Shown: piece after piece, positions 6,105-50,942 of the stretch
Layout: each line of letters begins with the position of its first letter
Numbering within the stretch: position 1 is the first letter of the stretch
Source of the DNA: Polaromonas sp.
GTDB taxonomy: Bacteria; Pseudomonadota; Gammaproteobacteria; Burkholderiales; Burkholderiaceae_C
Direction: 5' to 3'
Assembly (NCBI GenBank): GCA_021737975.1
Contig: JAIPCZ010000015.1
Location: 1 to 50,942 of the forward strand
Length of the DNA stretch: 50,942 nucleotides
Made by a program: the position numbers and the translations under genes
The notes under the pieces: model-generated
The model's input: the letters and a program-made list of their open reading frames with translations, nothing else
Databases searched by the model: none
What the model was told of the DNA's origin: nothing

Positions 6105-9705
<3,601 letters not shown>

Positions 9706-9722
9706 GGAAGCAGTGGCCGAGT

Positions 9723-10826: not shown

Positions 10827-10912
10827 GCAGGGTTTGCTCAGATTGAATGTAGCGAAGTGAATTCATATTAGAACTCAAAAGCCCGGATGTCTGCGCGGTA
10901 AACCGCGGCGCA

Positions 10913-12019: not shown

Positions 12020-12071
12020 GGAACTATTTTCGTTGAATCGTTTTTTAGGGTCTTGTGGGGTCTTGTCCACA

Positions 12072-31625: not shown

Positions 31626-31705
31626 GAGAAGGTCCTTTTCGTAGTTGATCAAACACCAGCAAAAAAAAGATCGGCTGGTTGGGGTCGAATCCTACTGGAG
31701 AAACT

Positions 31706-31730
31706 CGCGTCTTCATAGGGGGAAGACGCG
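31706..31730. repeat. Inverted repeat, 9-base arms, between H1/SWIB and rraA genes
   Basis: CGCGTCTTC (31706-31714) pairs with GAAGACGCG (31722-31730) across a 7-base loop. It lies in the divergent promoter region about 90 bases before the rraA start and may be an operator or leader hairpin. A T-loop-like string, GTCGAATCC (31684-31692), lies just before it. Confidence 0.6.
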
Positions 31731-31816: not shown

Positions 31817-32341
31817 ATGACCCCCCCTTTTGCCACCTGTGATTTGTGCGATGCCAACAAGAACGAGGCCCCCGAGCAGTTTCGGGTGTTGCCGCCGGTA
31901 TTCAAGGACTTCGGTGCGCGCCGTGTTTTTTACGGTCCGGTGGTGACGGTCAAATGCTTCGAGGACAACACGCTTGTGAAGGCGGCGGTCGAAGCGGCTG
32001 GTTTTGCCGAGACGCCTGGCGGGCGAGTTGGCAAGGTGCTGGTGGTGGACGGCGCAGGCTCCTTGCGTCGCGCCTTGCTGGGCGGCAATCTGGGTGCCGC
32101 CGCCGCCAGAAATGGCTGGGCTGGGGTGGTGATCGACGGTTGTGTGCGCGACGTGGCCGAGCTGGCCGAGCTTGACGTGGGCATTCGCGCGCTTGCCAGC
32201 AACCCGATGCCAACGGAAAGAAAGAACCAGGGCCTGCAGGATCTGGCGGTGCAGATTCAGGGCGTCTGGGTCCACCCGGGCGACTGGTTGTATGCCGATG
32301 CCGACGGCATCGTGGTCAGCGCGACGGAACTCACGCGTTGA
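31817..32341 (+). CDS. rraA: RraA-family protein (RNase E regulator or HMG aldolase)
   Basis: A 174-residue protein of the RraA/HMG aldolase family. RraA proteins inhibit RNase E. Family members with the motif G-x20-R-D-x2-E/D are class II aldolases that cleave 4-hydroxy-4-methyl-2-oxoglutarate or decarboxylate oxaloacetate. This protein has GGNLGAAAARNGWAGVVIDG followed directly by CVRDVAEL, so the Arg-Asp and the later Glu of that motif are present and an aldolase activity is possible. The ATG at 31817 has AGGA 8 bases upstream; the frame is open from 31679 without family sequence. Its last 11 bases overlap the convergent GntR gene. Confidence 0.85.
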   Translation: MTPPFATCDLCDANKNEAPEQFRVLPPVFKDFGARRVFYGPVVTVKCFEDNTLVKAAVEAAGFAETPGGRVGKVLVVDGAGSLRRALLGGNLGAAAARNGWAGVVIDGCVRDVAELAELDVGIRALASNPMPTERKNQGLQDLAVQIQGVWVHPGDWLYADADGIVVSATELTR

Positions 32342-32999
32342 TGACGCGTCGGGTAAATCGTTCCAGGTAATCCATCAGCTGGCTGGCCGCGGCGGCGGCT
32401 TCCACTTCCTTGCCCGACGCAATGGCCTGGGCCAATATCATGTGAAAACGGGCACCCTCGGTGATCTCGCCCTTGGCCTGGTAACGGTACCAGAAACGCC
32501 GACACTGGACGACCAACGGCACCACCGCCTTGACGGCCGAATAATTGCAGCAGGCCGCATGGTTCACATTGTCAAGTTCCTGGTCGGCCGTCATGTAGTC
32601 GTCCAGATTGCCGCGTTCGCTGGCAATGAGCATTTTTTCGGCACAGGCCACGAGGGCCTTTCGCTGCACCTCGGTGGCGCGTCTGGCCGAACAGGTGGCG
32701 ATCAAGGTCTCCAGTCCGCGGCGCGTTTCAATCAGATCGAGGTGGTCGACCACATCGATGTTGGAGACCCGGAGACCGCGGCGTGGTTGTTGCTCGATGA
32801 GCCCGCTCGAGACCATGCGCATGAGCGCTTCGCGCACGGGTGTGCGTCCGAGTTGGGTCATTTCAGCCAATTCCGCCTCGACAATGAGTGATCCTGGCGC
32901 GATGACCAGCTTGGAAATCATGGCCTCGATCCGGTCGTAGGCCAGGTCTGCCACGCGGCGCTTGGGCACGGGTGGCTTCCGGGTTTGGCTGATGGGCAT
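32331..32999 (-). CDS. GntR-family transcriptional regulator, FCD subgroup
   Basis: A 222-residue regulator. The N-terminal winged helix-turn-helix has LAYDRIEAMI, the recognition region MTQLGRTPVREALMRMVSSG and LIEQQPRRGLRV. The C-terminal all-helical FCD ligand domain has metal-type histidines (LDNVNHAACC, GARFHMILAQAI). FCD regulators usually repress catabolic operons until an organic acid or amino acid binds. It is the last gene of the hydroxyproline cluster, 37 bases after the flavoprotein gene, so it is a candidate regulator of that cluster and of the repeated AT-rich site upstream of the DapA-family gene. I chose ATG 32999; the long upstream frame is a shadow of the flavoprotein gene. 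Confidence 0.88.
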   Translation of the reverse strand: MPISQTRKPPVPKRRVADLAYDRIEAMISKLVIAPGSLIVEAELAEMTQLGRTPVREALMRMVSSGLIEQQPRRGLRVSNIDVVDHLDLIETRRGLETLIATCSARRATEVQRKALVACAEKMLIASERGNLDDYMTADQELDNVNHAACCNYSAVKAVVPLVVQCRRFWYRYQAKGEITEGARFHMILAQAIASGKEVEAAAAASQLMDYLERFTRRVINA

Positions 33000-33036
33000 G
33001 GTGGGTGGTGTGCTGGCTGAGGTCGCAGAGTTGGGA

Positions 33037-34329
33037 TTATTGTTTATCTTTGGGCACATCTGCCAGGTCACCGAGCAGCGTCGAGAGGCGCGCCGGCGAC
33101 AATGGCGGCCGGGGTACCGGCGGTGTCCATCCGTACAAGAATTGGGCCGCGGCGCCACAGACCCGGCCCTGGCAGGCGCCCATGCCGCACCGGCTCTGCA
33201 ACTTGGCGTCCGTCCAGCCGCTGCACTGCGACAAGCTGGCGTGGCTGACATCTTCACAACGGCAGACCAGGGTGTCTGCTTGCGGCATCTGCCGCAGCGC
33301 CGGGTCAAGCGCAAAGTGGCGATTGAGTTGCCCGGCAAAGGCCTCCCAGCGCGCGCGTTCCGGCCAGATTTTTTGTGCCGCCCGGGTCTCGTTGACGGCA
33401 GCCAGCCCCGCAATCCGGCCCTGGGCCAGCGCGCGCTCGGCGCCGCCAAAACCCGTGCACTCGCCGGCGGCATAAATGCCCGCCACACTGGTGGCTTGAA
33501 ATTCATCCACCTTGAGCGCCTGGTTGCCGTTGGCCGTGCCCAGGGCGCAACCCAGCAAGTGTCCCAACTGGGTGTTGGGCACCAGCCCGAAACCGCTGGC
33601 GACGCGCTCGCAGGCGAGGGTGCTGGTGCGGCCCGCGTAACGCAACTGGACCGACTCGACCTGTTGCCGGCCGAGTGCCGCCACCAACCGGGTGCCGGTG
33701 CGGTAGCCGGGGTCGGCCAGCGTCAGCGCCTGTAATGCCTTGGACGGCCAGCGCCCCAGCTGTGCGGCAAAGGCTGCCACGCTGCCCAGACTGGCCTGCT
33801 CCGCGACCCGCAGCACCTGGGCGCCGGCCTTGCGCGCCGAGGCTGCTGCTGCCAGCAACAAAGGCCCGCTGCCGGCAATCACGATGCGTTCGCCCCGAAC
33901 CGGCAGGCCGGCCTTGATCAGCGCCTGCAGGCCACCGGCACCGCTGACACCAGGCAGCGTCCAGCCCGGGAACGGCAGCAGCAATTCACGGGCACCGGTG
34001 CACAGAATCAGGGTGTCGAAGTGCTGGGTCCAGCCACGCTCGGCGTCTTCCAGCAACAGGGCCTTGGGTCCAATGGCGGAGATGACGCGGGTGCCGCAAA
34101 GCACCTGCACGTTGGCGCAGCGCGCCACGGCTTCGCGCAGGCGCAGGGCCTGGGCCGGCAGCGTGGCGGCGGGGCCGTCGCGCCAGATCTGGCCGCCGGG
34201 GGCGATGTTGTCGTCGAGCAGCGTGACACGGGCGCCACTGGGCGCCGCGGCCTGCGCGGCGGCCAGACCGGCCGGACCGGCACCGATGATCAGCAGTTCC
34301 GTGCTGGAGGGGTCGCGTCGTGAATTCAT
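33037..34329 (-). CDS. D-hydroxyproline dehydrogenase, FAD/NAD(P)-type alpha subunit
   Basis: A 430-residue flavoprotein with two dinucleotide-binding folds (LLIIGAGPAGLAAAQAA near the start, IVIAGSGPLLLAAAASA about mid-protein) and YAAGECTGFGGAERALAQG near residue 310. A C-terminal BFD-like cysteine cluster (LVCRCEDV ... SRCGMGACQGRVCG) should hold a [2Fe-2S] centre. This is the layout of the alpha subunit of hydrogen-cyanide synthase/opine/D-hydroxyproline dehydrogenases. With the small ferredoxin subunit and the DadA-like subunit encoded immediately upstream it would oxidise cis-4-hydroxy-D-proline to 1-pyrroline-4-hydroxy-2-carboxylate. Its start codon shares one base with the ferredoxin stop (TGATG). 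Start ATG 34329; the frame runs further to 34437. Confidence 0.85.
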   Translation of the reverse strand: MNSRRDPSSTELLIIGAGPAGLAAAQAAAPSGARVTLLDDNIAPGGQIWRDGPAATLPAQALRLREAVARCANVQVLCGTRVISAIGPKALLLEDAERGWTQHFDTLILCTGARELLLPFPGWTLPGVSGAGGLQALIKAGLPVRGERIVIAGSGPLLLAAAASARKAGAQVLRVAEQASLGSVAAFAAQLGRWPSKALQALTLADPGYRTGTRLVAALGRQQVESVQLRYAGRTSTLACERVASGFGLVPNTQLGHLLGCALGTANGNQALKVDEFQATSVAGIYAAGECTGFGGAERALAQGRIAGLAAVNETRAAQKIWPERARWEAFAGQLNRHFALDPALRQMPQADTLVCRCEDVSHASLSQCSGWTDAKLQSRCGMGACQGRVCGAAAQFLYGWTPPVPRPPLSPARLSTLLGDLADVPKDKQ

Positions 34330-36801: not shown

Positions 36802-37818
36802 TCAGGCCAGCAGCGCGAGGATGTCATCGTGCAGGGCGCGGGGGATTGACACGCCATGCGCCATGCTGCGCGCGCGCGCCTCGAAACGGCGTTGCGAGGG
36901 CAGCCGCGCGCCCTGGCCGGTGATGGCCTCGAACAGATGTTCGGCGCGCGCCTGATCGGCGCCTGGCGCGCTGGTGGAAAAGAAACTTGGGTCAAAGGCC
37001 AGAATCAGCTCGCCATGGCGCGGCGTGCCGCCAATGGCGCCATCGACCGCGATCGACTCCAGGCTGGTCAGGTCGCCCAGCAGGGGTCCGGCCAGCAACT
37101 CGATCATGGTGGCCAGGGCCGACCCCTTGTGGCCGCCAAAGGTCAGCATGGCGCCCTGCTGCAGCACCGTGGCGGCATCGGTGGTGGGTGCGCCATCGGC
37201 GTCGATGCCCCAGCCGACAGGCAAGGGGCGGCCGCTGCGGCGGTACAGCTCGATCTCGCCGCGCGCCACCGCGCTGGTGGCAAAGTCGAAGACATAGGGG
37301 TTGCCGCTTGGGCGCGGCCAGCTGAAGGCGATCGGGTTGGTGCCAAAAACGGCCAGTCGGCCTCCGGCCGGCGCGACACAGGCGTGGGCGGGTGTGATCG
37401 CCAGCGCGCAGATGTTGTGGGCCGCGAGGCTCTCCACTTCCGGCCAGAGGGCGGAGAAATGAAAGCAGTTGTTGATGACCAGCGCGGCAATGCCGGTGCG
37501 CCGCACCTTTTCCACCAGGTGCTGGCTGCCGACCTCGAAGGCCAGCGGGGAAAAGCCGAATTGGGCATCGACCGCCACGACCGCGGGCGAACGCTGGCTG
37601 ACCAAGGGTTCGGCATGGCACGCCACCTTGCCCTCGCGCAGGCTGCGGGTGCACATCAACAGGCGAAAGAGGCCGTGTGAATGGCACTCGTCACGCTCAC
37701 CCGCCACCATGACGCGGGCGATGGCCCGGGCGTGGCCAGGGGGCAGGCCGTGGTGCGCCAGGACCCGCAGCGCCAGCGCCTCGGCCTCGGCCAGGGACAA
37801 GGAGACAGTCTCCGTCAT
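36802..37818 (-). CDS. Ldh2-family 1-pyrroline-2-carboxylate/piperideine-2-carboxylate reductase
   Basis: A 338-residue malate/L-lactate dehydrogenase (Ldh2/DpkA) family enzyme, NAD(P)H dependent with the family's unusual fold. Recognisable parts are [18 protein letters not shown] near residue 45 (catalytic His region), [26 protein letters not shown] and [20 protein letters not shown]. In Pseudomonas, DpkA reduces cyclic imines to L-proline or L-pipecolate. Lying between two hydroxyproline-acting racemase-family genes, it should convert 1-pyrroline-2-carboxylate from the two dehydratases to L-proline. Its ATG overlaps the epimerase stop by 4 bases. Confidence 0.84.
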
Positions 37819-38750
37819 GGCCGGATGCCCCAGGCAAAGGGGTCTTCCGGGTCGAGCAGCAGGGTGGCTTCGCTGCTCATGTGGGCGCGGCCACGAAGGG
37901 TGGGAATGACCTGACCATCTTCCAGCGCGTAACTGGTCTCGAAGCGGCTGCCAATCACGCTGGCCTGGACCCAGGTTTCACCGGGCGCCAGCTTGCCATC
38001 GGCCGCCAGACAGGCGATCTTGGCGCTGGTCCCGGTGCCGCAGGGCGAGCGGTCGTAGGCGTTGCCCGGGCACAGCACAAAATTGCGGCTGTCGGCACCC
38101 TCGGGGTCATCCGCAAAGAGCTCGATGTGGTCCACCTCGCCCCCATCGCTGCCGGAGATGCCTTGTGCCGCGAGCGCCAGGCGCAGCGCGGCGCAGTAGG
38201 CTGTGAGCGCGGCAATGTTGTCGCTGGCCACGCGCTGGCCGTGCTGGCTCACCAGAAAAAACCAGTTGCCGCCCCAGGCGACGTCGCCATGCACCAGGCC
38301 CTGGCCCGGCACCTCGACCGCCACCTGATGCAGATGGCGCCAGGAGGGCACGTTGCAGACGCTGACCGATCCGTCCGGGTGCAGGGTGGCCGTGACGGTG
38401 CCGACCGGGGTTTCGATGCGGTGCTCGCCGGGCCCGATGCGACCCAGGTAGGCCAGCGATGCGACCAGGCCGATGGTGCCGTGGCCGCACATGCCGAGGT
38501 AACCGGTGTTGTTGAAGAAGATGACGCCCGCGATGTTGGCCGGGTCGACCGGCGGGCACAGCAGCGCGCCCACGATGACCTCGCTGCCGCGCGGCTCCAG
38601 CACGGTGGCGGCGCGCCAATCGTCATGCTGCAGCTTCAGCAGGTCGCGTCGCTGCGCCATGCTGCCGGTGCCCAGGTCGGGAAAACCGGCCAGCACCAAA
38701 CGCGTCGGCTCGCCCCCCGTGTGTGAATCAATGATTTCTATTTTTTTCAT
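37815..38750 (-). CDS. 4-hydroxyproline 2-epimerase
   Basis: A 311-residue proline racemase-family enzyme with both catalytic cysteines: Cys88 ([12 protein letters not shown]) and Cys237 ([12 protein letters not shown]). Opening [16 protein letters not shown] is typical of 4-hydroxyproline epimerases. It interconverts trans-4-hydroxy-L-proline and cis-4-hydroxy-D-proline, the entry step for the dehydrogenase encoded downstream. It is clearly distinct from the Ser/Cys paralogue 1 kb away, so the two should not be redundant. It follows the transporter ATPase gene by 22 bases and overlaps the reductase gene by 4. Confidence 0.9.
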
Positions 38751-40138: not shown

Positions 40139-40147
40139 GGCGGCCCT

Positions 40148-40819
40148 TCAATACCGGAACAGACGCCAGGCCATGAGCCTCGCCGTCAGGATGATGAGTT
40201 TGGCAATGATGTAGTAAATGACCGCCGCAATGGCAAAGTACTCGAAGGTGCGGAAGGTCAGCACGTTGTATGCCTGGGTGACACCGGTCAGGTCATTGTT
40301 CAGCCCCACCACGATCCCCAGCGAAGTCATCAGCACGGCCCACACCATCTGGTTGGTCATCGGGTAAAACACGATGCGCAGGAGCTGGGGTACCACGATC
40401 AGGCGGTAGGTCTGAAAGGCGCTCATGCCCAGGGAACGGGCTGCCTTGATTTGCGTCTCTGGAACCGCCTTGAGGCCGCCGCGGAAGTTTTCGGCCAGGT
40501 AGCCCGCGTTGTTGAAGGTGATGCCCGCCACCAGCGCGAACCAGGAGCTGACGTGCAGGCCAAACGCCCCAAGGCCAAAATACAGGATATAGATTTGAAA
40601 CAGCGCCGGGGTGTTGCGCGCAATCGAAACCCAGGCATCAGAGAAACCGCGCATCAGCGGATTGCGCGCGGTCCGCATGGCCGTCAGGCCCAGCGCGATC
40701 AAGACGCCGAAAATCATCGATAGCACAGCGGTTTCCACCGTGACCCAGCTGCCGGCCAGCATGTCGGGCAGGGCCTTGAGCGCCGTGTTCCAGCGGAAGG
40801 TGTAGTCAAAGTCGAACAT
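40148..40819 (-). CDS. Polar amino acid ABC transporter permease (first)
   Basis: A 223-residue HisM/HisQ-type permease. It has WVSIARNTPALFQIYILYFG, the coupling region GGLKAVPETQIKAARSLGMS followed by AFQTYRLIVVPQLLRI, and a final hydrophobic helix. Starts 6 bases after the aconitase X stop codon, which places that enzyme gene inside the transporter operon. Confidence 0.92.
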   Translation of the reverse strand: MFDFDYTFRWNTALKALPDMLAGSWVTVETAVLSMIFGVLIALGLTAMRTARNPLMRGFSDAWVSIARNTPALFQIYILYFGLGAFGLHVSSWFALVAGITFNNAGYLAENFRGGLKAVPETQIKAARSLGMSAFQTYRLIVVPQLLRIVFYPMTNQMVWAVLMTSLGIVVGLNNDLTGVTQAYNVLTFRTFEYFAIAAVIYYIIAKLIILTARLMAWRLFRY

Positions 40820-40825
40820 GGGTAA

Positions 40826-42598
40826 TCAGCTCCTTGGACCGGCGTTTGCCGGGTCAGATGCCAGCCAGGCGGGTAACTTGCCGCTGGCCTGACCCGTGCA
40901 GGCGGCCTCGGCACAGTCGGCCAGAGAACCGAAGTGCACCTGACGCCCGGTAAGTCCTGGGGCGTAATGCGCATATTTGCCCGAGTTGGTCATGATGACC
41001 CGGGCCGCGATTGGCACCACGGGTTCCTCCAGCATGCACCAGCAGGTGTCGGTGATCACATTCACGCCAAAGGCCGTGAGCACGGCCAGGTCGCCATGGC
41101 GCTCGGCTTTGACGCTGACCGCGCGGCCGAGGGTCAGCACGATGGCGGTGTCCGGGTGGTGCTGGCGGCCCCTCAGGGGCATTGCCAGCGCATGGCACTC
41201 GGTCTCCGAGAAATGCGGGTTGCCCAGTGCCACCAGATCGACCCGCTGCTCAGCCGCGCTGTCAAGCTCGCGCCAGGCTTGCCTGAGTTCACCCAGCGTC
41301 AGGTGGTGCTCGACCTCGGGCGGCAGGCCGGCCAGCGCCGCCTGCGCGCTTGGGGCTTCTGGCGTGACATTGACAATATGAAACATGGGGGCGGCGCTGG
41401 TGGTGGCAAAGGCCGCGCCAAATGCCTTGAGATCATCCAGGCTTGGCTTGGCCGACTCCAGACCGCAGATCACCGGAATTCGCGCACCGGCCAACAGGCC
41501 GACCTGGTAACCCAGCAGCGGGTAGAAGGCGTCGTCCGGCGCCGCCGGCAACACCGGCAATTGCACCAGCAGGGTGGCGCGCCGGTTTTCGACCAGGTGG
41601 CAGCCGGCCTTGGGCGCGCGCCCGATGAGGGCAATACAAATGTCGAGAAAATCGGCGTATTTGGCGGTGTGCGCGCCAAGCACACTGTTGGCATAAACCA
41701 CCGCATTGGACTCGGCCCAGACGATTTCCTCGCCGGCCTTCGGAGCGCTGTCGAGCAAATAGGGCGCGCAGGTAAAACTGGGCTGGGAGCCCATGTCGAC
41801 ATAGGCTTGCGCCAAGGCGCTGGCAGGTTCGCCAAAGGCCGGGTCGATGCCCAGCGCGCGCCAGCGCCGCTGGTCGACCGAGATGGCGTTCAGCGTGGTC
41901 GGAATCTTGACTTTGCCGCCCCAGTCGCGCAACTGGCAGGCAAAGCGCAGGCTGGCTGATCCGGTATAGATGCAGCCGTCGATGTGCGCCTGCACCACGT
42001 CGATCAACTCGGTCGCACCCTGCAGTTGGGCCATGCGCAAAACGATTTGCAGGGCAACCTGTCGTGCCCTGCCTTCACCGCCATCCAGGATTGCCTGGTC
42101 AGCGGGGCTCAAGTGAATCCCATGGGGGCTTGCCCGTGAAGCCGCCGGGCTTTCGGGCGCCGCCACAGGCAGCGCGTCGGGCGGTCCGGGCTCGCTTGTG
42201 GCGGTCAGTTGCCCGTCGGCTTGCAGGCTGACCCACTGCGCGCCGCGCAACTGGGCAAAACCCTCGGCGCCCACGCTGACGACCGGCAGTTGATGACCAA
42301 ACACCAGCTCGGCCACGATGGCGCCCAGCGCCAGGATTTCATCGGGCTGCTCCAGCACCAGCGCGGCGGGACCATGCCCGTTGAGGATGATCTCCATCAG
42401 CACGCTGCTGCCGGTGCATGAGCCGCGGCCACTGGGAATCGCCAGCACCTGGCCTGCGATCACTTGTCCGCTCAGCGGGTGATGGCGATCGATCACCTCT
42501 CCGGTCGCCGGATGGACACCGCCCCAGAAACTCAAAGGGGTGTCGCTGTAAAGCAAGGGCCCCTGCGCAGAGCCACCCGTGAGCTGACAAGCGATCAT
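40826..42598 (-). CDS. Aconitase X, likely cis-3-hydroxy-L-proline dehydratase
   Basis: A 590-residue fused aconitase X. The small-subunit-like part comes first (~1-145: PLSFWGGVHPATGEVID, IPSGRGSCTGSSVLMEIILN in two pieces, EPDEILALGAIVAEL-like), then the large part (~165-565: GEGRARQVALQIV, AHIDGCIYTG, GSQPSFTCAPYLL, WAESNAVVYANSVLGA, VITDTCWCML, TNSGKYAHYAPGL). Cysteines in DGCIYTG, TCAPYLL and DTCWCM are candidates for binding an iron-sulfur cluster. Characterised bacterial AcnX proteins dehydrate cis-3-hydroxy-L-proline to 1-pyrroline-2-carboxylate, which fits the adjoining reductase. Start ATG 42598, 11 bases after the binding-protein gene; the frame to 42661 is an artefact. Confidence 0.85.
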   Translation of the reverse strand: MIACQLTGGSAQGPLLYSDTPLSFWGGVHPATGEVIDRHHPLSGQVIAGQVLAIPSGRGSCTGSSVLMEIILNGHGPAALVLEQPDEILALGAIVAELVFGHQLPVVSVGAEGFAQLRGAQWVSLQADGQLTATSEPGPPDALPVAAPESPAASRASPHGIHLSPADQAILDGGEGRARQVALQIVLRMAQLQGATELIDVVQAHIDGCIYTGSASLRFACQLRDWGGKVKIPTTLNAISVDQRRWRALGIDPAFGEPASALAQAYVDMGSQPSFTCAPYLLDSAPKAGEEIVWAESNAVVYANSVLGAHTAKYADFLDICIALIGRAPKAGCHLVENRRATLLVQLPVLPAAPDDAFYPLLGYQVGLLAGARIPVICGLESAKPSLDDLKAFGAAFATTSAAPMFHIVNVTPEAPSAQAALAGLPPEVEHHLTLGELRQAWRELDSAAEQRVDLVALGNPHFSETECHALAMPLRGRQHHPDTAIVLTLGRAVSVKAERHGDLAVLTAFGVNVITDTCWCMLEEPVVPIAARVIMTNSGKYAHYAPGLTGRQVHFGSLADCAEAACTGQASGKLPAWLASDPANAGPRS

Positions 42599-42609
42599 GC
42601 TTGGGCTGA

Positions 42610-43425
42610 TCAGTAGTAGACGCCCGGCACCATCAGGTCTGGCGGCGTGCCACCGACCCATTTTTGATACAACTCGGCATAACGACCGGTGCGCACCTGC
42701 TGGTTGACAAACAAGTTCAGGTAGTTGACCAGGCCGTATTCGCTGCGCTTGGCCACCAGCGAAACATAGTCGATGGTGTAGGGCGCCAGGCCGGCAACTT
42801 TAAGACCCTTGTATTTGCCCGACTTGATCGACGCAAAGGCAACGGTGGACGTCACGACGGTGGCGTCGATATGACCCTGGCTCACGGCGAGAATGGTGTC
42901 AGCCTGCGTTTGATAAGCGCGGAAAGTGCCCTTGGGGTCCTTCCATGCCTTCACGTCCTTTTCCAGGGCGAGGGCCTCGTAGGAACTGACCGTGTTGCCA
43001 ACGGGGCGGCCCTTCAGGTCTTTGTAGCTGTTGATTTTCTTGTCGTCGCGCGTCAGCACCACCATGGTGAAAGCAAAGTAGGGAATCGACATGCCCACGG
43101 TCTTGGCGCGCTCGAGAGTGTCGGAAGTGGAGCCGACAACCACATCCACCCGGTTGGAAACCAGTGCCGGAATGCGGTCGGCAAACGGTGTTTCGACCAC
43201 CTCGGGCTTGACGCCCAGCACCTTGGCCAGGTCGCTGCAATAGTCAACGTCGAAACCAATCGGGTTGTTGCTCGCGTCGCGTGAGCCCATGGGCGGGAAG
43301 TCCAGCACAACGGCGCAGCGCAGCTTGCCTGATTCGATGATGCTGTCGAGTTTGTCGGCCGACGCCTGCGTCGCGTACAAGCCGAGTGTGCAGGCGGCTG
43401 CCAGGGCTAGAGTTTTCAGTTTCAT
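42610..43425 (-). CDS. Amino acid ABC transporter periplasmic binding protein
   Basis: A 271-residue SBP_bac_3 family protein. The signal peptide (MKLKTLALAAACTLGLYATQ-ASA) ends near residue 24, and the mature part starts DKLDSIIESGKLRCAVV. The ligand-binding segments LDFPPMGSRDASNNPIGFDV, then VDVVVGSTSDTLERAKTVGMS and GRPVGNTVSSYEAL are typical of polar amino acid receptors. AAAGG lies 7 bases before ATG 43425. With its AcnX neighbour and the permeases it is the receptor of the probable hydroxyproline importer. Confidence 0.9.
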   Translation of the reverse strand: MKLKTLALAAACTLGLYATQASADKLDSIIESGKLRCAVVLDFPPMGSRDASNNPIGFDVDYCSDLAKVLGVKPEVVETPFADRIPALVSNRVDVVVGSTSDTLERAKTVGMSIPYFAFTMVVLTRDDKKINSYKDLKGRPVGNTVSSYEALALEKDVKAWKDPKGTFRAYQTQADTILAVSQGHIDATVVTSTVAFASIKSGKYKGLKVAGLAPYTIDYVSLVAKRSEYGLVNYLNLFVNQQVRTGRYAELYQKWVGGTPPDLMVPGVYY

Positions 43426-43476
43426 AGTAAACACCTTTAAGTTGTGAAACACGGAGGGGACCAGGGGCGCGCGAAG

Positions 43477-43500
43477 GCGAGATCTCAGTCGAGATCGCGC
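43477..43500 (-). repeat. Intercistronic hairpin between deaminase and binding-protein genes
   Basis: GCGAGATCTC pairs with GAGATCGCGC around AGTC with one mismatch. It stands just after the deaminase stop codon (43506). No T run follows, so it probably protects the upstream mRNA or adjusts expression of the binding protein, which is usually needed in excess. Confidence 0.45.
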
Positions 43501-43505
43501 AATGC

Positions 43506-44420
43506 TCAGGGAACAGACTGGTACTGAACAGGCCGTGTTGCCAGGGCCTTCTTGACGACAGTCTCGATAAATTCACGCTCGGCGCCGACCAGCGGCAGGC
43601 GGGGGCGGCGCATGTGCTCGGTGCTGACACCGGCCACCACATCGATGAGCTTGAGGTTTTGCACCAGCTTGGTGGAAACATCCAGGTGCAGCATGGGCGT
43701 CATCCACTGGTAGAGCTTGAGCGCCTCGGCAAACTTGCCGGCTTTCATCAGGTCATACAGCGCCACCGTCTCGCGCGGGAAAGTGCAACCCACACCGGCC
43801 AGCAGGCCGTCACAGCCCAAGGCCAGGCCCTCGTAGGCCAGGTCGTCCACGCCCAGGAACAGCTGGTAGCGGTTGCCCACGGTGTTGCGCAGGTCGGTGA
43901 TGCGGCGGATGTCGTCGCTGCTCTCCTTGATGGCGACCAGCCACTCGCAGTCGGCCAGTTCCAGCATGTGGGCCGGCTTGAGGTCGACCCGGTAGGCCAC
44001 CGGGTTGTTGTAGATCATGATGGGCTTTTGCGCGGCGTTTGCCATCGCGCGCACATTGGCCATGGCTTCACGCGCATCGGCCACATAAATGACCGAGGGC
44101 ATCACCATGAAGCCGGCCACACCCAGCGCATTTGCGCCCTCGATGTAGCGCAGCGCCTCGCGTGTGCTGGTCTCCGAGACGTTGGCGAGCACCGGGACAC
44201 GGCCCGCGCTGGCTTCCAGGGCGATCTTGGCGACCTGGAGTTTTTCTTCGAGAGTGAGTGTGCTGGCTTCGCCGAGCGAGCCGCAGGTCACGAGGCCATG
44301 GATGCCGTTGCGGATCTGGAAATCGATGTGGCGCCCGGTGCCCTCGGCGTCGATGCTTTCATCGGCGTGGAACTTGGTGGTGATGGCCGGAAAGATGCCT
44401 TGCCAGCGGGGGTTGTTCAT
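43506..44420 (-). CDS. DapA-family deaminase, likely 1-pyrroline-4-hydroxy-2-carboxylate deaminase
   Basis: A 304-residue class I aldolase-fold protein of the dihydrodipicolinate synthase/N-acetylneuraminate lyase family. The Schiff-base Lys165 is in WLVAIKESSDD, Tyr137 in MIYNNP, and the loop LVTCGSLGEASTL occupies residues 43-55. In hydroxyproline pathways the DapA-like enzyme dehydrates and deaminates 1-pyrroline-4-hydroxy-2-carboxylate to alpha-ketoglutarate semialdehyde. The strong site AAGGAGT precedes ATG 44420. It is the first gene of the hydroxyproline transcript, with a palindromic AT-rich promoter region upstream. Its first ~20 codons and upstream DNA recur in degraded form at 49134-49275. 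Confidence 0.85.
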   Translation of the reverse strand: MNNPRWQGIFPAITTKFHADESIDAEGTGRHIDFQIRNGIHGLVTCGSLGEASTLTLEEKLQVAKIALEASAGRVPVLANVSETSTREALRYIEGANALGVAGFMVMPSVIYVADAREAMANVRAMANAAQKPIMIYNNPVAYRVDLKPAHMLELADCEWLVAIKESSDDIRRITDLRNTVGNRYQLFLGVDDLAYEGLALGCDGLLAGVGCTFPRETVALYDLMKAGKFAEALKLYQWMTPMLHLDVSTKLVQNLKLIDVVAGVSTEHMRRPRLPLVGAEREFIETVVKKALATRPVQYQSVP

Positions 44421-44462
44421 GCGGGACTCCTTGAATGGGGTGAGGGGGAAACGATTGACTCA

Positions 44463-44505
44463 GGATATGTTGTAAATATATTTAACGTCGAAAAAAAACA
44501 TATCC
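44463..44505 (-). promoter_or_regulatory. Palindromic AT-rich operator/promoter of the hydroxyproline operon
   Basis: GGATATGTT (44463-44471) and its exact complement AACATATCC (44497-44505) flank 25 bases that include a perfect 12-base palindrome TAAATATATTTA (44473-44484). It lies 43 bases upstream of the deaminase start, in the proper place for a promoter. The core AAATATATT..CAACATAT (minus strand) occurs again at 49250-49270 in front of the phosphatase operon. The GntR/FCD protein encoded at the end of the cluster is the most likely binder. Confidence 0.6.
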
Positions 44506-44541
44506 GTGTTAACCACTAGCCTTGAAATATGTTTGAAAGAC

Positions 44542-44569
44542 ACGCAAAAGACATGCCAGTCTTTTGCGT
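44542..44569 (-). terminator. Probable terminator of the phosphatase/ABC operon
   Basis: A perfect 11-base-pair stem ACGCAAAAGAC / GTCTTTTGCGT with a 6-base loop lies 26 bases after the binding-protein stop at 44596. The T run on the minus strand is poor (TGTCTTTC), so termination may be incomplete and transcription could run into the hydroxyproline operon. Confidence 0.55.
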
Positions 44570-44595
44570 TCACGGCCCGGTTTGGTGCTGCGTGT

Positions 44596-45591
44596 TCAGG
44601 TTTTTGCTGCCACGGCCGCAGTCCACTCCTCGAGGAATTCCTTGCGCCGGGCTGCTGCCTCGGTCTCGTTGATGGCAAACACCTTGACCGACGCGAGGTT
44701 GGGCAGTTCGGCATACTGGCTCACGTCGATGTCGCTGCGGCTCGGACGGCGGAAGGCGTTCTCCAGCAGCGCGATCTGCACTTCCTTGGAGATGATGTGG
44801 TCAAACGCGCGCCGTGCCAAGTCACCATTGGGTGCGTTCTTGCCCAACACCAGGAACTCGGGGGTGCTGAACGTGCCATCTTCCGGATACAGCAAGCGAA
44901 TTTCCTTCTGCCCGCCCGCCACGTAGGCATAGGCGTTGGCTTCGAAGGTCAAGCCCACGGCATATTCGCCCTGCGCCACGGCGCGCAACACGGTGGCTGC
45001 GGCGCTGGTGACCACCACGTTGTTGGCCAGTTGGCGCAGCCCCTGCGCGCCCAGCATCTGCTTGACACCCCACAAAATGGTGTAGGCGGTGGAACTGTTG
45101 GCCGGGTCGGCGATGATGATCTTGCCTTTCCAGCGCGGGTCGAGCATGTCCTTCCAGACCTTGGGCTCGGCGTTGCCACCCAGGTGTTTGCGGTTGACCA
45201 TGGCCGTGACCAGATGGACGTTGGAAGCGGTCCATAAATTGTTCGGCTCGGCCAGCGCAGCCGGGATGCTGGCCGCCTCCGGCGAACGGTAGGGTTCGAA
45301 CAAATGTTTGAAGGCGCCCAGGGTGTTGGCGCTCGAACTCCAGAACAGATCAGCCTGCGGTGCCGACAGCTCGGTTTCCATCCGCTTGAGCAACACGCCG
45401 CTGCCGCCGGTGACGAAATTGAACTTCAGGTTGGGCAGCTTGGTGCGCGCCACGTCGGTGATCGATTGCACGGCCTGCTGGTTGTTGGAGGTATAGACCA
45501 CCACGTTGCCTGAAGTCTGCGCAAACAGCGGACTTGCGGCGGTGGCGCCCATGGCTGCCAGAAACTGGCGACGGTCGAAGGGGAATTGCAT
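44596..45591 (-). CDS. ABC transporter periplasmic binding protein (ferric iron/sugar-phosphate/phosphonate type)
   Basis: A 331-residue SBP of the Fbp/AfuA/PhnS class. A Tat-like signal (DRRQFLAAMGATAASPLFAQ) begins at residue 5, and the mature part opens VVVYTSNNQQAV. Recognisable parts are FVTGGSGVLLKRMETE, ADLFWSSSANTLGAF, WKDMLDPRWKGKIIIADPANSS and EGEYAVGLTFEANAY-like AQGEYAVGLTFEANAY. This class is commonly annotated as iron-binding but includes sugar-phosphate and 2-aminoethylphosphonate receptors. A phosphatase is encoded in the same operon, so a phosphorylated ligand is more likely. GGAG precedes ATG 45591; the frame to 45687 overlaps the permease and is not coding. Confidence 0.85.
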   Translation of the reverse strand: MQFPFDRRQFLAAMGATAASPLFAQTSGNVVVYTSNNQQAVQSITDVARTKLPNLKFNFVTGGSGVLLKRMETELSAPQADLFWSSSANTLGAFKHLFEPYRSPEAASIPAALAEPNNLWTASNVHLVTAMVNRKHLGGNAEPKVWKDMLDPRWKGKIIIADPANSSTAYTILWGVKQMLGAQGLRQLANNVVVTSAAATVLRAVAQGEYAVGLTFEANAYAYVAGGQKEIRLLYPEDGTFSTPEFLVLGKNAPNGDLARRAFDHIISKEVQIALLENAFRRPSRSDIDVSQYAELPNLASVKVFAINETEAAARRKEFLEEWTAAVAAKT

Positions 45592-45643
45592 GATGATCTC
45601 CGTTTGGGGTTGTGGTTGGGGAAAGTGGTGACGGGGCTCCTGC

Positions 45644-47290
45644 TCAGCGCGATGCAAAGACATCGATCTTGAACACGGTGGTGGCAATCAGGATGGGTAC
45701 CAGGATGATGGTGAGCAGCACCAGTCCGTAGGCCGAAGCCTGAGCCATGAGATTGGAGTCGATCAGGCGGAATATCTGGATCGGCAGTGTCTCCTGTCCC
45801 GCCGAATACACCACCACGGAGGCACTCAGCTCGGCCACGGTCGTGGTCCACACCAGCACGCCGGCCGCTGCGATCGACGGCACCATGAGCGGCAGCACCG
45901 CCTTGAACAGCGTCTGCAGCGGCGGCACGCCCAGGCTCACGGAAGCGTCCTCGATCGAATCGGGAATGTTGTACAGCGTCGATGACGCATTGCGAATGCC
46001 GAACGGCAGCCTGCGGATCAGGTAGGCCAGGATGATGATGCCCGCTGTTCCCGCCAGCGGCAGCCAGCTGCCCCGAAACGACATCACCAGGCCGATGCCC
46101 AGCACCGTGCCCGACAAGGCCAGCGGCAAGGCGCCCAGGTAGTCTATGGCCGGGGTGAGTGCGTTGCGTTTCTTGACGATCAGGAAGCCGACCAGGGTGC
46201 TGATCACCAGGCTCAGCAGCAGCGCCACGCCGGCGTACAGCAAGGTGTTGAGAATGGGGTCGGGCGCGCCGATCAGCACCCGCTCGAGGTTGGCCGTGGT
46301 CCACTCGCCCCAGCGCATCACCGGGCCACGCGCGCGGGTGAAGGCGCCGATCACCACCGTGACCAGCGGCAGCAGCGAGATCGCCACGATCACGCCCGCC
46401 ACTGCGGCCATCGCAACGGCGCGCACGCCGCCCACGCCCACCGGCCGGGTGCCGCGCCCCTGCACGATCTCAAACCGCCCGCGCGACAAAATCCAGCGCT
46501 GCAGGAACAAGACACAAGCGACGATGGCGATCGAGACACTGGCCAGCGTGCTTTGCATCACCGGATTGGCGCCCACCTCGGAGACAAAGCTCTGGTAAGT
46601 GAGCACCGACAGCAGGTTCACGCTGTGCCCCAGGATCATGGCCACGGCGAAGTTGCCCACCACCAGCGTGAAGACCAGAATGGAACTGGCAAGGATGGCC
46701 GGCGTCACCACGGGCAGCATCACTTTCAGCAGGGTCCGCCCCGGCGGCACACCCAGGCTCTGCGAGGCCTCCTCTAGTTGCCCGTCGAAGCCGCGGATCG
46801 CCGCCAGCGTGCCGATGTAGACATAGGTGTAGTAGATGAAAGTCATCACCGTGACCAGGCCCAGCCAGCCGTAGAAGGAGGGGATCTCGATGTCGTGGCC
46901 GCCAAGCCAGCGCGTCACGAAACCGTTGTTGCCCAGCACCATGAGCCAGGACTGCGCCGCGATCACCTCGGGAACGATGAGCGTGGTCATCGGCAGGATC
47001 GCGATCAGCGCCTTGCCGGGAAAAGAGAAGCGCGCGGTGAAGAAAGCCAGCGGCACGCCGATCAGTGTCGACGTCACCGTGACCGCCAGACCCAGCAGCA
47101 GCGTGTTGACCACGGCCGAGCGGTAGGTTGGATCGCTCACCAGAATGGCCCAGCCCGAACGCCCGTCCTGGCTGGCGGCCACACTGGACGCAATCACTCG
47201 GAACAGCGGGTAGAGCAGGAACAGGCAGAACATGGCAAGCACCAGGGCCGACAGCCAGAACCAGACCCGGTTGTGGCGCGGCCCGATCAT
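45644..47290 (-). CDS. ABC transporter permease with two fused permease halves
   Basis: A 548-residue FbpB/AfuB-type inner-membrane protein with about 12 helices. It is two permease units in one chain, each with a coupling motif: QLEEASQSLGVPPGRTLLK about residue 175 and SIEDASVSLGVPPLQTLFK about residue 455. It forms the whole channel alone and works with the ATPase whose stop codon overlaps its start by 4 bases. The substrate is set by the binding protein encoded 52 bases downstream. Confidence 0.9.
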   Translation of the reverse strand: MIGPRHNRVWFWLSALVLAMFCLFLLYPLFRVIASSVAASQDGRSGWAILVSDPTYRSAVVNTLLLGLAVTVTSTLIGVPLAFFTARFSFPGKALIAILPMTTLIVPEVIAAQSWLMVLGNNGFVTRWLGGHDIEIPSFYGWLGLVTVMTFIYYTYVYIGTLAAIRGFDGQLEEASQSLGVPPGRTLLKVMLPVVTPAILASSILVFTLVVGNFAVAMILGHSVNLLSVLTYQSFVSEVGANPVMQSTLASVSIAIVACVLFLQRWILSRGRFEIVQGRGTRPVGVGGVRAVAMAAVAGVIVAISLLPLVTVVIGAFTRARGPVMRWGEWTTANLERVLIGAPDPILNTLLYAGVALLLSLVISTLVGFLIVKKRNALTPAIDYLGALPLALSGTVLGIGLVMSFRGSWLPLAGTAGIIILAYLIRRLPFGIRNASSTLYNIPDSIEDASVSLGVPPLQTLFKAVLPLMVPSIAAAGVLVWTTTVAELSASVVVYSAGQETLPIQIFRLIDSNLMAQASAYGLVLLTIILVPILIATTVFKIDVFASR

Positions 47291-48354
47291 GCTGCCACCA
47301 CCCGTGTCTGCTGCGCGTCGAACCGCAGCAAGGCGTGTTCGCCCACCGCTGGCAGCACCTGGTGATCATCGGTTTCCACTCGCAGCACGGCACCGCCATC
47401 GAGCTCGACCGCATAAATGGTGCGCGCACCCAGGTACTGCCGGCGGCGGATGGTGCAGCGCAGCTGGTTGGACGCTGGCGCCCCGTCGGGCGACAGGAGG
47501 AGCATCTCGGGGCGCGCGATCAGCGCGGCGGTGCCCGCAGGCAGGGCCTCGGGCGCCAGGGCCTGCAGGGCCATGCCATGCAGGCGCACGTCGGCCAGGC
47601 TGTCGGCTGCGGCCGGGGCGGCCAGGCTGGCCTCGACGATGTTGGCAGCGCCCACAAAATCCGCGGCATAGGCGCTGCGGGGACGCGCGTACAGGTCTTG
47701 CGGCGTGCCCGACTGCTCCAGCCGGCCCTCGCGGATCAAGCCGATTCGGTCGGACATGGCCAGGGCCTCTTCCTGGTCGTGGGTGACCAGCACGGTGGTG
47801 ATGCCGATCTCTTTTTGCAGGTCGGAGATGGTCTCGCGCACCTGCACCCGGAGTTTGGCGTCCAGGTTGGACAGTGGCTCGTCCATCAGCAACACGGTCG
47901 GTTTGATGGCCAGCGCGCGGGCGAGCGCCACACGCTGGCGCTGCCCGCCCGACAAGGCGGCAGGCAGGCGGCTGGCGTATGCCCCCAGGCCGACACGCTC
48001 AAGGTACTCGCCCACCGTGCGCTGGATGGTGGCCGCATCGATCTTGCGCGCCCGCAGGCCATAGGCGACGTTGTCGAACACCGTCTTGTCGGGAAACAAG
48101 GCATAGTCCTGAAACACCATGCCCACGTCGCGCAGATGCGCAGGGAGATGGGTGACATCGCGCTCGCCGAAACGCAGCTTGCCCTGGCGCACCGGAATGA
48201 AGCCGGCAATCGTGCGCAGCAGCGTGGTCTTGCCGCAGCCACTGGGGCCCAGCAGCGTGTACAGGCTGCCGTCCTCGATGGTCAGGGAAAAGTCCCGGAT
48301 GACCGGGTCGGCGCCATAACCGACCGAGAGCTGGGAGATGGAAATTTGCGCCAT
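47287..48354 (-). CDS. ABC transporter ATPase (PotA/FbpC/AfuC type)
   Basis: A 355-residue ATPase. Walker A GPSGCGKTT, Q-loop VFQDYALFPDKTVFDNV, signature LSGGQRQRVALARAL, Walker B VLLMDEPLSNLD, switch VTHDQEEALAMSDRIGL. A C-terminal TOBE-type regulatory region (about 250-355, with ARPEMLLLSPDG) is typical of the CUT1/iron group. The start is ATG 48354, 13 bases after the phosphatase stop; the frame to 48426 overlaps the phosphatase gene. It overlaps the permease gene by 4 bases. Confidence 0.9.
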   Translation of the reverse strand: MAQISISQLSVGYGADPVIRDFSLTIEDGSLYTLLGPSGCGKTTLLRTIAGFIPVRQGKLRFGERDVTHLPAHLRDVGMVFQDYALFPDKTVFDNVAYGLRARKIDAATIQRTVGEYLERVGLGAYASRLPAALSGGQRQRVALARALAIKPTVLLMDEPLSNLDAKLRVQVRETISDLQKEIGITTVLVTHDQEEALAMSDRIGLIREGRLEQSGTPQDLYARPRSAYAADFVGAANIVEASLAAPAAADSLADVRLHGMALQALAPEALPAGTAALIARPEMLLLSPDGAPASNQLRCTIRRRQYLGARTIYAVELDGGAVLRVETDDHQVLPAVGEHALLRFDAQQTRVVAA

Positions 48355-48367
48355 GGTGGTCCTGCAT

Positions 48368-49159
48368 TCAGTCTGAAAAATGGTGCGCCTGGATGACGGC
48401 AAGGGCGGCCGCATGCCGGCGCGCATCCCCAGCGGCCAGCACGCGCGGCCCGCTGTTCAAGGTGATCGGCCGGCCGGCCCAATCGGTGATTGTTCCGCCA
48501 GCGCCGGTGACGATGGGCACGAAAGGCGCGTAGTCGTACACCTTCAATCCGGCATCGATGGCGACATCGGTCCGGCCCATGGCCAGCCGGCCATAAGCCA
48601 GTGCCGCCGTGCCGTAGATGCGCCAGGCGGTTTGTGCCGTGATCGCCTCCAGAGCGCGCTTCTCGTCGTTAGCGGTAAAAAAATCAGGGCTGCTCGCCGA
48701 CTGGATGGCGTCATGCAGGCCGGCGCCCAAACGTGTGTGGCAATCTTGCCCGTTGCAGGTGGTGCGCCTGTCGCTGGCGCCCACCCAGCGCGTGTGAATC
48801 GCCGGAAAATGCATGATGCCGATCACCGGGAGGCCGTGGTGCGAGAGCGAGATCAGGGTCGAGTACACCGGAATGCCGGCCACCAGTGCCATCGTGCCGT
48901 CGATCGGGTCCAGCGTCCAGACCCATTCGGCGTCGGCACGCGCGGGGCCGAATTCCTCACCCACAATGCCGTGGTCCGGATAGGCCGCCTCGATCTGCGC
49001 GCGCAGACGCACTTCGATGGCGAGGTCGAGTTCGGTGACAAAGGTCTTGTCCGCCTTCACCGTGGTTCCCAGCGGTGCCGTCGATCCGGCCTCGATCATG
49101 GCCGAGGCGATGTCGGCAAGACCGTTGGCGAAGTCAACGAACGGCGCAAGCGTCTGCAT
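48368..49159 (-). CDS. Inositol monophosphatase-family phosphatase (HisN-like)
   Basis: A 263-residue Mg-dependent phosphatase. Metal-binding motifs are GEEFG, WTLDPIDGTMALVAGIP and DAGLKVYDYAPFVPIVTGAGG, with DKTFVTELD upstream. The family includes inositol, histidinol, fructose-1,6-bis- and PAP phosphatases; the substrate cannot be told. There is no signal peptide, so it acts in the cytoplasm, perhaps on a phosphorylated solute brought in by the ABC transporter encoded next. The ATG at 49159 has no good ribosome binding site and lies inside a degraded second copy of the DapA-family gene start (49134-49211), so its 5' end was probably created by that rearrangement. Translation may depend on the relic's AAGGG site. 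Confidence 0.82.
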   Translation of the reverse strand: MQTLAPFVDFANGLADIASAMIEAGSTAPLGTTVKADKTFVTELDLAIEVRLRAQIEAAYPDHGIVGEEFGPARADAEWVWTLDPIDGTMALVAGIPVYSTLISLSHHGLPVIGIMHFPAIHTRWVGASDRRTTCNGQDCHTRLGAGLHDAIQSASSPDFFTANDEKRALEAITAQTAWRIYGTAALAYGRLAMGRTDVAIDAGLKVYDYAPFVPIVTGAGGTITDWAGRPITLNSGPRVLAAGDARRHAAALAVIQAHHFSD

Positions 49160-49211
49160 GGAACTTGGCGGTGATGGCCCTGGCGGCGGCTTGCCAGCGG
49201 GGGTGATTCAT
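49134..49211 (-). pseudogene. Relic of a second DapA-family (hydroxyproline deaminase) gene start
   Basis: From ATG 49211 the minus strand reads MNHPRWQAAARAITAKFHAD and ends at a TGA after 25 codons. The intact deaminase at 44420 begins MNNPRWQGIFPAITTKFHAD, so 14 of the first 20 residues match. At DNA level 49152-49221 matches 44361-44430 at 54 of 70 bases without gaps, and the resemblance continues into the upstream AT-rich promoter. AAGGG precedes the relic ATG. Homology stops where the phosphatase coding sequence begins, so this is a truncated duplicate whose body was lost. It may still be translated as a short leader that overlaps the phosphatase start by 26 bases. Confidence 0.75.
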
Positions 49212-49249
49212 GCGGGACCCTTTGCGGTAGGTGGGGCTTAAAAAGGATT

Positions 49250-49275
49250 GAATATGTTGCTAATATATTTGAAAT
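49250..49275 (-). promoter_or_regulatory. Second copy of the AT-rich operator core, phosphatase operon promoter region
   Basis: AATATGTTGCTAATATATTT (49251-49270) corresponds to GATATGTTGTAAATATATTT in front of the deaminase gene (44464-44483), with 17 of 20 bases equal. The spacing to the relic ATG (about 40 bases) is close to that in the intact operon. The outer palindrome arm is not conserved. This is the likely promoter or operator of the phosphatase/ABC operon. Confidence 0.55.
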
Positions 49276-49366
49276 AAAGAAACAAATGCTAAGTATTAAC
49301 CCTGAAAGCGATCAATTTCGCAAGCCGTCCCGGTGGCTAAAAATCCTTTGCCGCAGCGCGCCAGCC

Positions 49367-50368
49367 TCAGGCAAATTTCCACTTCATCCAGGCCGCCGTG
49401 TTGAAAAAGCTCGCCACCACACTGCCCGGCGCCACCAGGTCGTCGCAGGCTGAGCGCAGCTCTTCGGGCAAGTGCATGTCGGCCACCGGCAAGGCGTGCA
49501 GCAACTGGGCCAGCGTGCGCGGGCCGATGATGGGTGCGGTGACGCCCGGTTGGTCCTTGACCCAAAGGTAGGCGAGTTGGGCCGGGTCATAACCCGCTTC
49601 ACGCGCCAGGGCGACAAACTGCAGGCCGACCTCGATGCCGCGGCGCGTGACCCGCTCGGCGTAAATGCCACCGCGCAGCATGGCGCGGCTGTCCGCAGGC
49701 GGGGTGTCCGCCAGCGCATAACGGCCGGCCAGCATGCCCATGGCCATGGGTGACCAGGTGAGCAGGGCCACCCCGTGTTTCTGGCAGGCCGGCACCAGCT
49801 CGTTTTCGACCCGGCGGTCAAGCAGGTTGTAAGGCGACTGCTCGCAGGCGAAGCGGCTCAGGCCGTGCCGCTCGCTGGTGAACAAGCCTTCCACCACCTG
49901 CCAGGCCGGCGTCGTGCTGGTGCCGATGTAGCGCACCTTGCCTTGGGTCACCAGCGTGTCGAGCGCATGCAGGGTCTCGTCCAGCGGGGTGTCGGGGTCG
50001 GGCCGGTGGGTTTGGTAAAGGTCGATGTAATCGGTGTTGAGCCGGCGCAGCGAGTCCTCGCAGGCGCGCAGGATGTGGTGCCGTGTCAGGCCCCGGTCGT
50101 TGATGCCCGGCCCGGTGGGGTAGAACACCTTGGTCGCGATAAACACGTCATCACGCCGCGGGCGGGTGCCGAGCCATTTTCCGATCAGGATTTCGGCCTG
50201 CCCGGCGGCGTAGCTGTTGCTGGTATCCACCAGATTGATCCCGGCGTCCAGCGCGGCATCCAGAATAGCCAGGCTCTCGGCTTCGGGCGTCGGGTTGACC
50301 AGGTTGTCGGTGCCCAGGACGAGCGATGAAATTTTCAGGCCAGTGCGGCCAAAGGCGCGGTATTGCAT
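49367..50368 (-). CDS. Aldo/keto reductase
   Basis: A 333-residue TIM-barrel NADPH-dependent oxidoreductase. The catalytic tetrad is Asp48 and Tyr53 ([11 protein letters not shown]), Lys80 (VFIATKV) and His121 (DLYQTHRPD). NADP-contact parts [10 protein letters not shown] and [11 protein letters not shown] also fit. It belongs to the general YajO/Tas-like group; the carbonyl or alcohol substrate is unknown. I chose ATG 50368, which starts 4 bases after the SDR stop; a longer frame reaches 50401 inside the SDR gene. The 155 bases between it and the relic carry the phosphatase operon promoter region. Paired with the SDR it may act on a sugar-like or polyol substrate. Confidence 0.83.
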
Positions 50369-50372
50369 GGTG

Positions 50373-50942
50373 TTATTGGCTGCTGTAGCCCCCGTCGACA
50401 TAGACCATCGCGCCGGTCATGTAGCTGGCAGCGTCGCTGCACAAAAACAGCGCCACGCGGGCAATTTCTTCGGGCTGCGCCAGGCGCCCCATCGGCACCA
50501 CGCGCTGCCCCATCTCGTGGGCCTGCACGTCGGTAAGCGGGGTGGCGCGTCCGGCAGAGCGCAACATCGGTGTGTCGACCTCGCCCGGGCAAACACAGTT
50601 CAAACGCACACCATCGCGCGCCAGCTCCAGCGCAAAGGTGCGCGTGATCTGGTGCACCGCCCCCTTGCTGCTGGCATAGGCCAGCGCGCCGGGGCCGCCC
50701 AACTCGCCCCAGATGCTGCCGAAGTTGACAATGGCGCCACCGCCATGGCCGCGCATATGGCGCCCCGCCGCACGCGTCAGGTAAAACACGCCGCCCGCGT
50801 TGACGGCCATGGCGCGTTGCCATTCCTCGTCCGTGGTGTCCACGCCGGCCTTTCGCGCAATGATGCCGGCGGCGTTGACCACCGCGTTGAGGCGGCCCGT
50901 GCGTTGCACTGCTGCGGCCACCGCCGCATTGCAAAACTCGGC
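50373..50942 (-). CDS. Short-chain dehydrogenase/reductase, C-terminal part
   Basis: The gene runs off the right edge of the window, so the N-terminal cofactor glycine motif is not seen; the frame is open to base 50942. The visible 189 codons have the SDR features NAAGII, then the catalytic Ser in [11 protein letters not shown] and the YASSK motif (Tyr and Lys). Next come the [11 protein letters not shown] loop and the C-terminal [21 protein letters not shown]. It is an FabG-like classical SDR, substrate unknown. It lies directly upstream of the aldo/keto reductase and is probably in one transcript with it. Confidence 0.88.

Follow-up and report, generated by a model that had tools for sequence, protein, structure and literature searches.

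A putative remnant of a hydroxyproline operon head in front of a phosphatase and ABC transporter gene set in Polaromonas sp.

Known systems and the gene company of the locus

Bacterial L-hydroxyproline (lhp) clusters bring together genes for an epimerase, an aconitase-X dehydratase, a proline racemase-like protein, an ABC transporter and a regulator, and the clusters presented in PMC5144071 include putative ABC-type L-hydroxyproline transporters; the word 'phosphatase' does not occur in the main text of that paper. In Streptomyces coelicolor, the section of PMC6608401 on HypR describes a GntR/FCD repressor of hydroxyproline genes that recognizes the site CTNTGC(A/C)ATGTCAC. Among importers of phosphorylated compounds, AfuABC takes up sugar phosphates and P5PAB pyridoxal phosphate, according to the relevant parts of PMC4546632 and PMC8427247, and the former gives H205, D206 and E229 as the AfuA residues that contact the sugar. 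Gene fusions born of deletions that join fragments of distant genes are treated in a 2026 preprint (PMC12803068), one passage of which also mentions localised promoter capture.

The DNA analysed here, hereafter the window, is a stretch of 50,942 nucleotides from Polaromonas sp. (contig JAIPCZ010000015.1 of GCA_021737975.1), which belongs to a draft genome (G000) of 2.61 Mb in 66 contigs, 69.5% complete. Its hydroxyproline cluster keeps much the same gene company as the clusters outlined in PMC5144071, relative to which the phosphatase gene and the three transporter genes behind it (phosphatase-phnTUS) are an addition. The features of the locus are collected in Table 1. Three query proteins of the window carry lhp labels that I presume to be apt: lhpA for the epimerase, lhpB for the FAD oxidase at 34592 and lhpE for the oxidoreductase at 33040. 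The context of the DapA-family gene points to a 1-pyrroline-4-hydroxy-2-carboxylate deaminase, and close DapA proteins (88-90%) bear the names Polaromonas, Acidovorax, Variovorax and Rhodoferax, in keeping with the family name Comamonadaceae. Elsewhere in the window, an open reading frame rich in Gly, Arg and Phe lies on the plus strand (31161-31718) and is perhaps only the antisense of a gene for a lysine- and alanine-rich protein.

Table 1. Positions of the features of the locus within the window
Feature	Position	Strand	Remarks
GntR/FCD regulator, far end of cluster, candidate reader of the promoter element	32331..33506	(-)	true start inside the ORF
4-hydroxyproline epimerase	37815..38750	(-)	above NCBIfam cut-off
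DapA-family gene (dapA), first of the hydroxyproline cluster	43506..44420	(-)	start 44420
Promoter element, first copy, before dapA	44463..44483	(-)	10 of 12 arm bases
PhnS/AfuA-like solute-binding protein	44596..45591	(-)	inserted unit ends about at its stop codon
PhnU-like fused ABC permease, 548 aa	45644..47290	(-)	profile searches
PhnT/PotA-type ABC transporter ATPase	47287..48426	(-)	ORF as listed; later ATG near 48354 is a likely start
Inositol-monophosphatase-family phosphatase, HisN-like, 263 aa	48368..49159	(-)	profile searches; start codon from relic bases
Relic reading frame MNHPRWQAAARAITAKFHADACAVR	49134..49211	(-)	ATG 49211, 25 codons, stop 49136-49134 inside the phosphatase gene
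Relic: copy of dapA promoter region, ribosome site and first 20 codons	49152..49307	(-)	alignment, blastn
dapA promoter element, second copy AAATATATTAGCAACATATTC	49250..49270	(-)	imperfect inverted repeat, 11 of 12 arm bases of AAATAT-N9-ATATTT
Aldo-keto reductase gene next to the inserted unit	49367..50401	(-)	directly beside dapA in the related genome G052

The PhnT-, PhnU- and PhnS-like proteins all score below the NCBIfam equivalog cut-offs of the PhnSTU 2-aminoethylphosphonate transporter. Compared with solved structures, the binding protein matches AfuA best (4r72, E 2.6e-20), with P5PA (6wce) fifth (E 8.8e-17). Yet the sugar-contacting residues of AfuA reported in PMC4546632 are not kept: the 4r72 alignment, in which they were placed by spacing (an HD pair, and E 24 residues on) and not by the numbering of the 4r72 record, puts other residues at those places. 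The phosphatase scores 153 bits against PF00459 (gathering cut-off 27), which assigns it to the inositol monophosphatase family, and falls below the NCBIfam equivalog cut-off for HisN histidinol-phosphatase (TIGR02067; 227 bits against 275). Its residues E68, E69, D84, D87, G88 and D209, which I take to be catalytic, are invariant in 40 sequences, and the best matches among the contig-scan matches listed are at 60% (Rhizobiales TNE-4) and 54% (Achromobacter MYb9). A phosphatase beside an importer would suit a phosphate ester as substrate, and a phosphorylated substrate is plausible for this importer. Phosphatase relatives at four other loci (L039, L041, L043, L116) adjoin amino-acid-type ABC permease and ATPase genes and not phnTUS; this type of phosphatase therefore pairs with different importers.

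The repeated dapA start and its promoter element

A preliminary description of this DNA held that the DapA-family gene has its promoter, ribosome site and first 20 codons repeated before the phosphatase gene, and this is borne out by blastn inside the window (E 1.7e-13, 73% identity over 128 gapped columns), in which the second-best partner of the copy reaches only E 0.012. Local alignment of 49152-49307 with 44361-44527, both on the minus strand, scores 54 whereas the best of 500 block shuffles scores 18, so that the match is significant and chance similarity is ruled out as its source. An earlier count of 54 equal bases among the 70 around the ATG became 55 on recounting, and the 14 equal residues among 20 were found again by eye from the translations. 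Within its own draft genome the copy matches itself and dapA and nothing else (E <= 0.001).

The copied codons have decayed without coding constraint, because the relic breaks eight of the 36 positions conserved in 90% or more of 47 intact genes, and because its changes relative to the window dapA are spread 5/4/5 across the codon positions. In five intact genes counted at the same 36 positions the breaks number 0, 1, 0, 0 and 0. The 20 intact genes nearest to the relic codons share 43-47 of their 60 bases; the window dapA shares 46, against 47 for the gene of a locus from another genus (L218). Given the significant match to intact genes, the stump is well supported as the remnant of a hydroxyproline dapA-type gene. 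No special RNA fold was detected at the relic start (49100-49245; z 0.41, with 121 of 200 shuffles folding equally well or better).

The promoter region copied with these codons contains an AT-rich element. The pattern AAATATATTNNCAACATAT was built from the bases common to both window copies, so that their fit is by construction while its rarity is not: allowing up to three mismatches, the window has two occurrences and 100 shuffles of it have none. For a slightly looser pattern, AAATATATTNNNAACATAT, searched with up to two mismatches, the draft genome has two sites, one preceding dapA and the other preceding the phosphatase gene, and the reversed control has none. Beyond the two window copies, the exact 17-base form of the element recurs, among 46 other dapA promoters, only in G052, a genome of the same genus. 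The core AATATAT is more widespread, being present in the relic and in 45 of these 46 promoters, the 46th having ATATATT; in the 45 its nearest copy lies 39-93 bases 5' of the start. By sequence, then, the relic keeps the local form of an element that hydroxyproline dapA promoters share across two families. As a strict inverted repeat the element is only partly supported: at least 11 of 12 arm bases are found at spacing 9 in 27 of 47 intact promoters and at spacing 7 in 25, the two spacings being nearly equal because the AT-run overlaps itself. A third site in the window, at 8296-8316, has 10 of the 12 arm bases of AAATAT-N9-ATATTT and is possibly due to chance.

Since the element is retained in the relic, the phosphatase and transporter genes are likely to be under the same regulator as the dapA operon. 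HypR and the window have in common a GntR/FCD regulator tied to hydroxyproline genes, but the HypR site, as given in that part of PMC6608401, is unlike the AT-rich element.

The junction and the insertion

The phosphatase ATG was said to lie within the relic, and it does: it opens at 49159, in another frame, within the last matching codons, CAT GCA GAC (His-Ala-Asp), which provide it. The further statement that the copy is cut exactly where the phosphatase frame opens holds to within a few bases, except that the phosphatase ATG is itself relic sequence. The protein starts M-Q-T-L, a start shared with P0001, a phosphatase 93-94% identical on another contig and one of five (P0001 to P0005) at 80-94%, while M-L or M-x-L is the usual start among its nearest relatives. 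The joining of relic and phosphatase gene may have been guided by a short GACG common to both.

No Shine-Dalgarno sequence is evident in the 20 bases upstream of this ATG, so that translation is likely to begin at the relic start and to re-initiate at the phosphatase. In such translational coupling, ribosomes would bind at the relic ATG and then reach that of the phosphatase, which lies 52 bases further on, inside the relic frame. Phosphatase starts in Achromobacter are preceded by AAGGA(G/A/C) or GGGAG in nine of 11 genomes, these nine being the ones with a placeable start; in Achromobacter sp. MYb9 (L034) the ATG overlaps the stop of the preceding frame.

In G052 (DapA 96%, reductase 96%) the reductase gene directly adjoins dapA. 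The 274 bases that separate the reductase stop from the dapA ATG in that genome align with the window from the dapA ATG to about 44615, so that homology does not cease where the repeat ends, at 44527, but continues as far as the phnS stop (44596); window positions 44528-44640 alone score 71 against G052, compared with a maximum of 34 in 1000 shuffles. On the other side, similarity to G052 fades within about 30 bases behind the reductase stop. The stretch between relic and reductase, 49308-49355, shows no homology to the G052 intergenic region (score 24, maximum of 1000 shuffles 29), and its score of 14 against the region upstream of the window dapA was taken, without shuffles, as no match. Because the reductase gene adjoins dapA in G052 and homology runs to the phnS stop, the roughly 4.7 kb that begin with the relic promoter and end at the phnS stop are an inserted unit, relative to that genome, upstream of the native dapA promoter, a point absent from the preliminary description. 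No contrast in base composition that would mark foreign DNA was found in 40000-50942 (GC 0.59-0.69). In another genome, G109 (DapA 97%), three genes named from sequence as TRAP-transporter-like occupy the same place upstream of dapA (L145, 11539-14443); the slot seems to accept different transporters.

Origin of the arrangement

A model for the parent arrangement is found in Achromobacter. In strain MYb9, genes for dapA, epimerase, FAD oxidase, lhpE-type oxidoreductase, phosphatase, phnT, phnU and phnS follow one another on one strand. PhnU matches at E <= 1e-150 occur in 34 of 43 genomes of the genus, and the loci of the 11 with a match at 64-66%, MYb9 included, were compared, the matches at 51-53% being left out; the order dapA-lhpA-lhpB-lhpE-phosphatase-phnT-phnU-phnS, on one strand, is present in nine of these 11. 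A row in L200 (G891; 5856-12481), dapA-lhpA-phosphatase-phnTUS without lhpB and lhpE in its 14.5 kb, is a natural shorter form of the operon. At L205 (G877), phosphatase-phnTUS is present, but the 14.5 kb of this locus contain none of the hydroxyproline genes tested.

Contexts on plasmids are also mixed (eight of 11 plasmid records with the permease were examined). On a Paracoccus pantotrophus plasmid the four genes lie beside genes for a GntR regulator, two proline racemase family proteins, dapA and an FAD oxidase. On those of P. denitrificans, P. versutus, Shinella HZN7 and Roseateles XES5 they adjoin a DeoR-type gene, and no hydroxyproline cluster is annotated in these stretches. On the Sinorhizobium LMB1 and Pseudosulfitobacter plasmids phnTUS occurs without an annotated phosphatase next to it, and in the unannotated record of a Shinella zoogloeoides plasmid the four genes were found by tblastn. 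Given these Achromobacter and plasmid contexts together, the hydroxyproline link therefore recurs but is not universal. Two divergent phosphatase-phnTUS sets lie side by side in L161 (4152-14630) and L163 (4067-14649), on Shinella and Roseateles plasmids, and only one of the two sets is close to that of the window.

The explanation that I favour, with moderate confidence, is that a second hydroxyproline operon, led by dapA, lost its middle by deletion, which joined its head, 49134-49307, to the phosphatase-phnTUS tail. The donor operon would have run promoter-dapA-lhpA-lhpB-lhpE-phosphatase-phnT-phnU-phnS, probably as it still does in Achromobacter. Deletion would have fused codon 20 or 21 of dapA to the phosphatase gene at its start, so that the promoter, the ribosome site and 20 codons remained, followed by the transporter tail; the resulting unit would have been carried as an insertion between the native dapA promoter and the gene for the aldo-keto reductase, where the regulator of the hydroxyproline operon would act on the copied element too. 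I infer this deletion route, as well as its order relative to the insertion. The preliminary description had proposed recombination or the deletion of a second deaminase gene: the relic is well supported as the head of the phosphatase operon, and of these two routes deletion fits best, though deletion of an operon middle and not of one gene, because nine of the 11 Achromobacter loci keep dapA first and the phosphatase and transporter genes last. As in the fusions described in PMC12803068, a deletion is proposed to join fragments of distant genes. Unlike the fusions in that account, the head here gives a promoter and an out-of-frame leader to a downstream gene that is whole, and both ends would stem from one functional operon.

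Achromobacter itself serves as a model of the donor and not as the donor, since one relic residue is Q where all 10 Achromobacter genes examined have T (in 37 genus and family genes it is Q in 23, K in seven, T in six and S in one). An intact dapA-to-phosphatase operon was not found among the 398 other genomes of the window's family sample, itself a sample of a larger group, in which the best matches reach 50% for the phosphatase and 52% for PhnU; nor was a donor found in the genus of the best relic match, where three of 47 genomes have phosphatases, at 41-43%.

In the main alternative, recombination would have placed a copy of the 5' end of dapA, from this genome or a close relative, before a phosphatase-phnTUS set that was arriving, and the genome would never have had a second deaminase operon at this site. 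The copy adjoins its likely source gene in the same orientation, and phosphatase-phnTUS does occur without hydroxyproline genes, at L205 and on several plasmids. The restriction of the exact element form to G052, among the 46 other promoters, fits an origin close to the window genome and therefore suits this local copying too. However, the Achromobacter gene order and the P. pantotrophus cluster give the association without fresh copying, the relic codons are no closer to the window dapA than to L218, and 49308-49355 matches neither the G052 intergenic region nor the window dapA upstream region, as expected of imported DNA. I regard local copying as possible but distinctly the less probable origin.

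It is improbable that the unit is ancestral at its present site and was lost by G052. Flanking direct repeats could recombine, but a simple crossover between them is ruled out as the origin of G052, which retains the stretch from the repeat end to the phnS stop; such a crossover would not leave this stretch beside the reductase gene. Moreover, among 88 other genomes of the genus, three match part of the relic, where their own dapA genes begin, and a match to the whole relic is found in none, and G109 has another transporter at that place. An assembly artefact joining two loci, conceivable in a draft of 66 contigs, is very improbable, since repeats of only 73% identity are too diverged to mislead an assembler and P0001, from other sources, shares the new phosphatase start.

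The arrangement looks like a natural promoter capture, which would have set the control of the phosphatase and transporter genes, and the start codon of the phosphatase derives from another gene. More speculatively, phosphatase-phnTUS might be an unrecognised branch of hydroxyproline catabolism, which would import and dephosphorylate a phosphate ester that co-occurs with hydroxyproline and would have been joined to it in separate lineages, as the operon tail in Achromobacter, in the P. pantotrophus plasmid cluster and in the Polaromonas window; here nothing but the promoter and a leader of 25 codons would have been retained by selection, so as to keep the transporter in the regulon. The locus offers a readable natural case of the rewiring of a gene set, in which long, shortened and, if the operon middle was indeed deleted, fully collapsed forms of an operon can be compared, the collapsed form having a decaying coding stump but a preserved regulatory element. 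As a phosphatase-linked ABC importer stands with hydroxyproline genes in three lineages, its substrate becomes a testable question.
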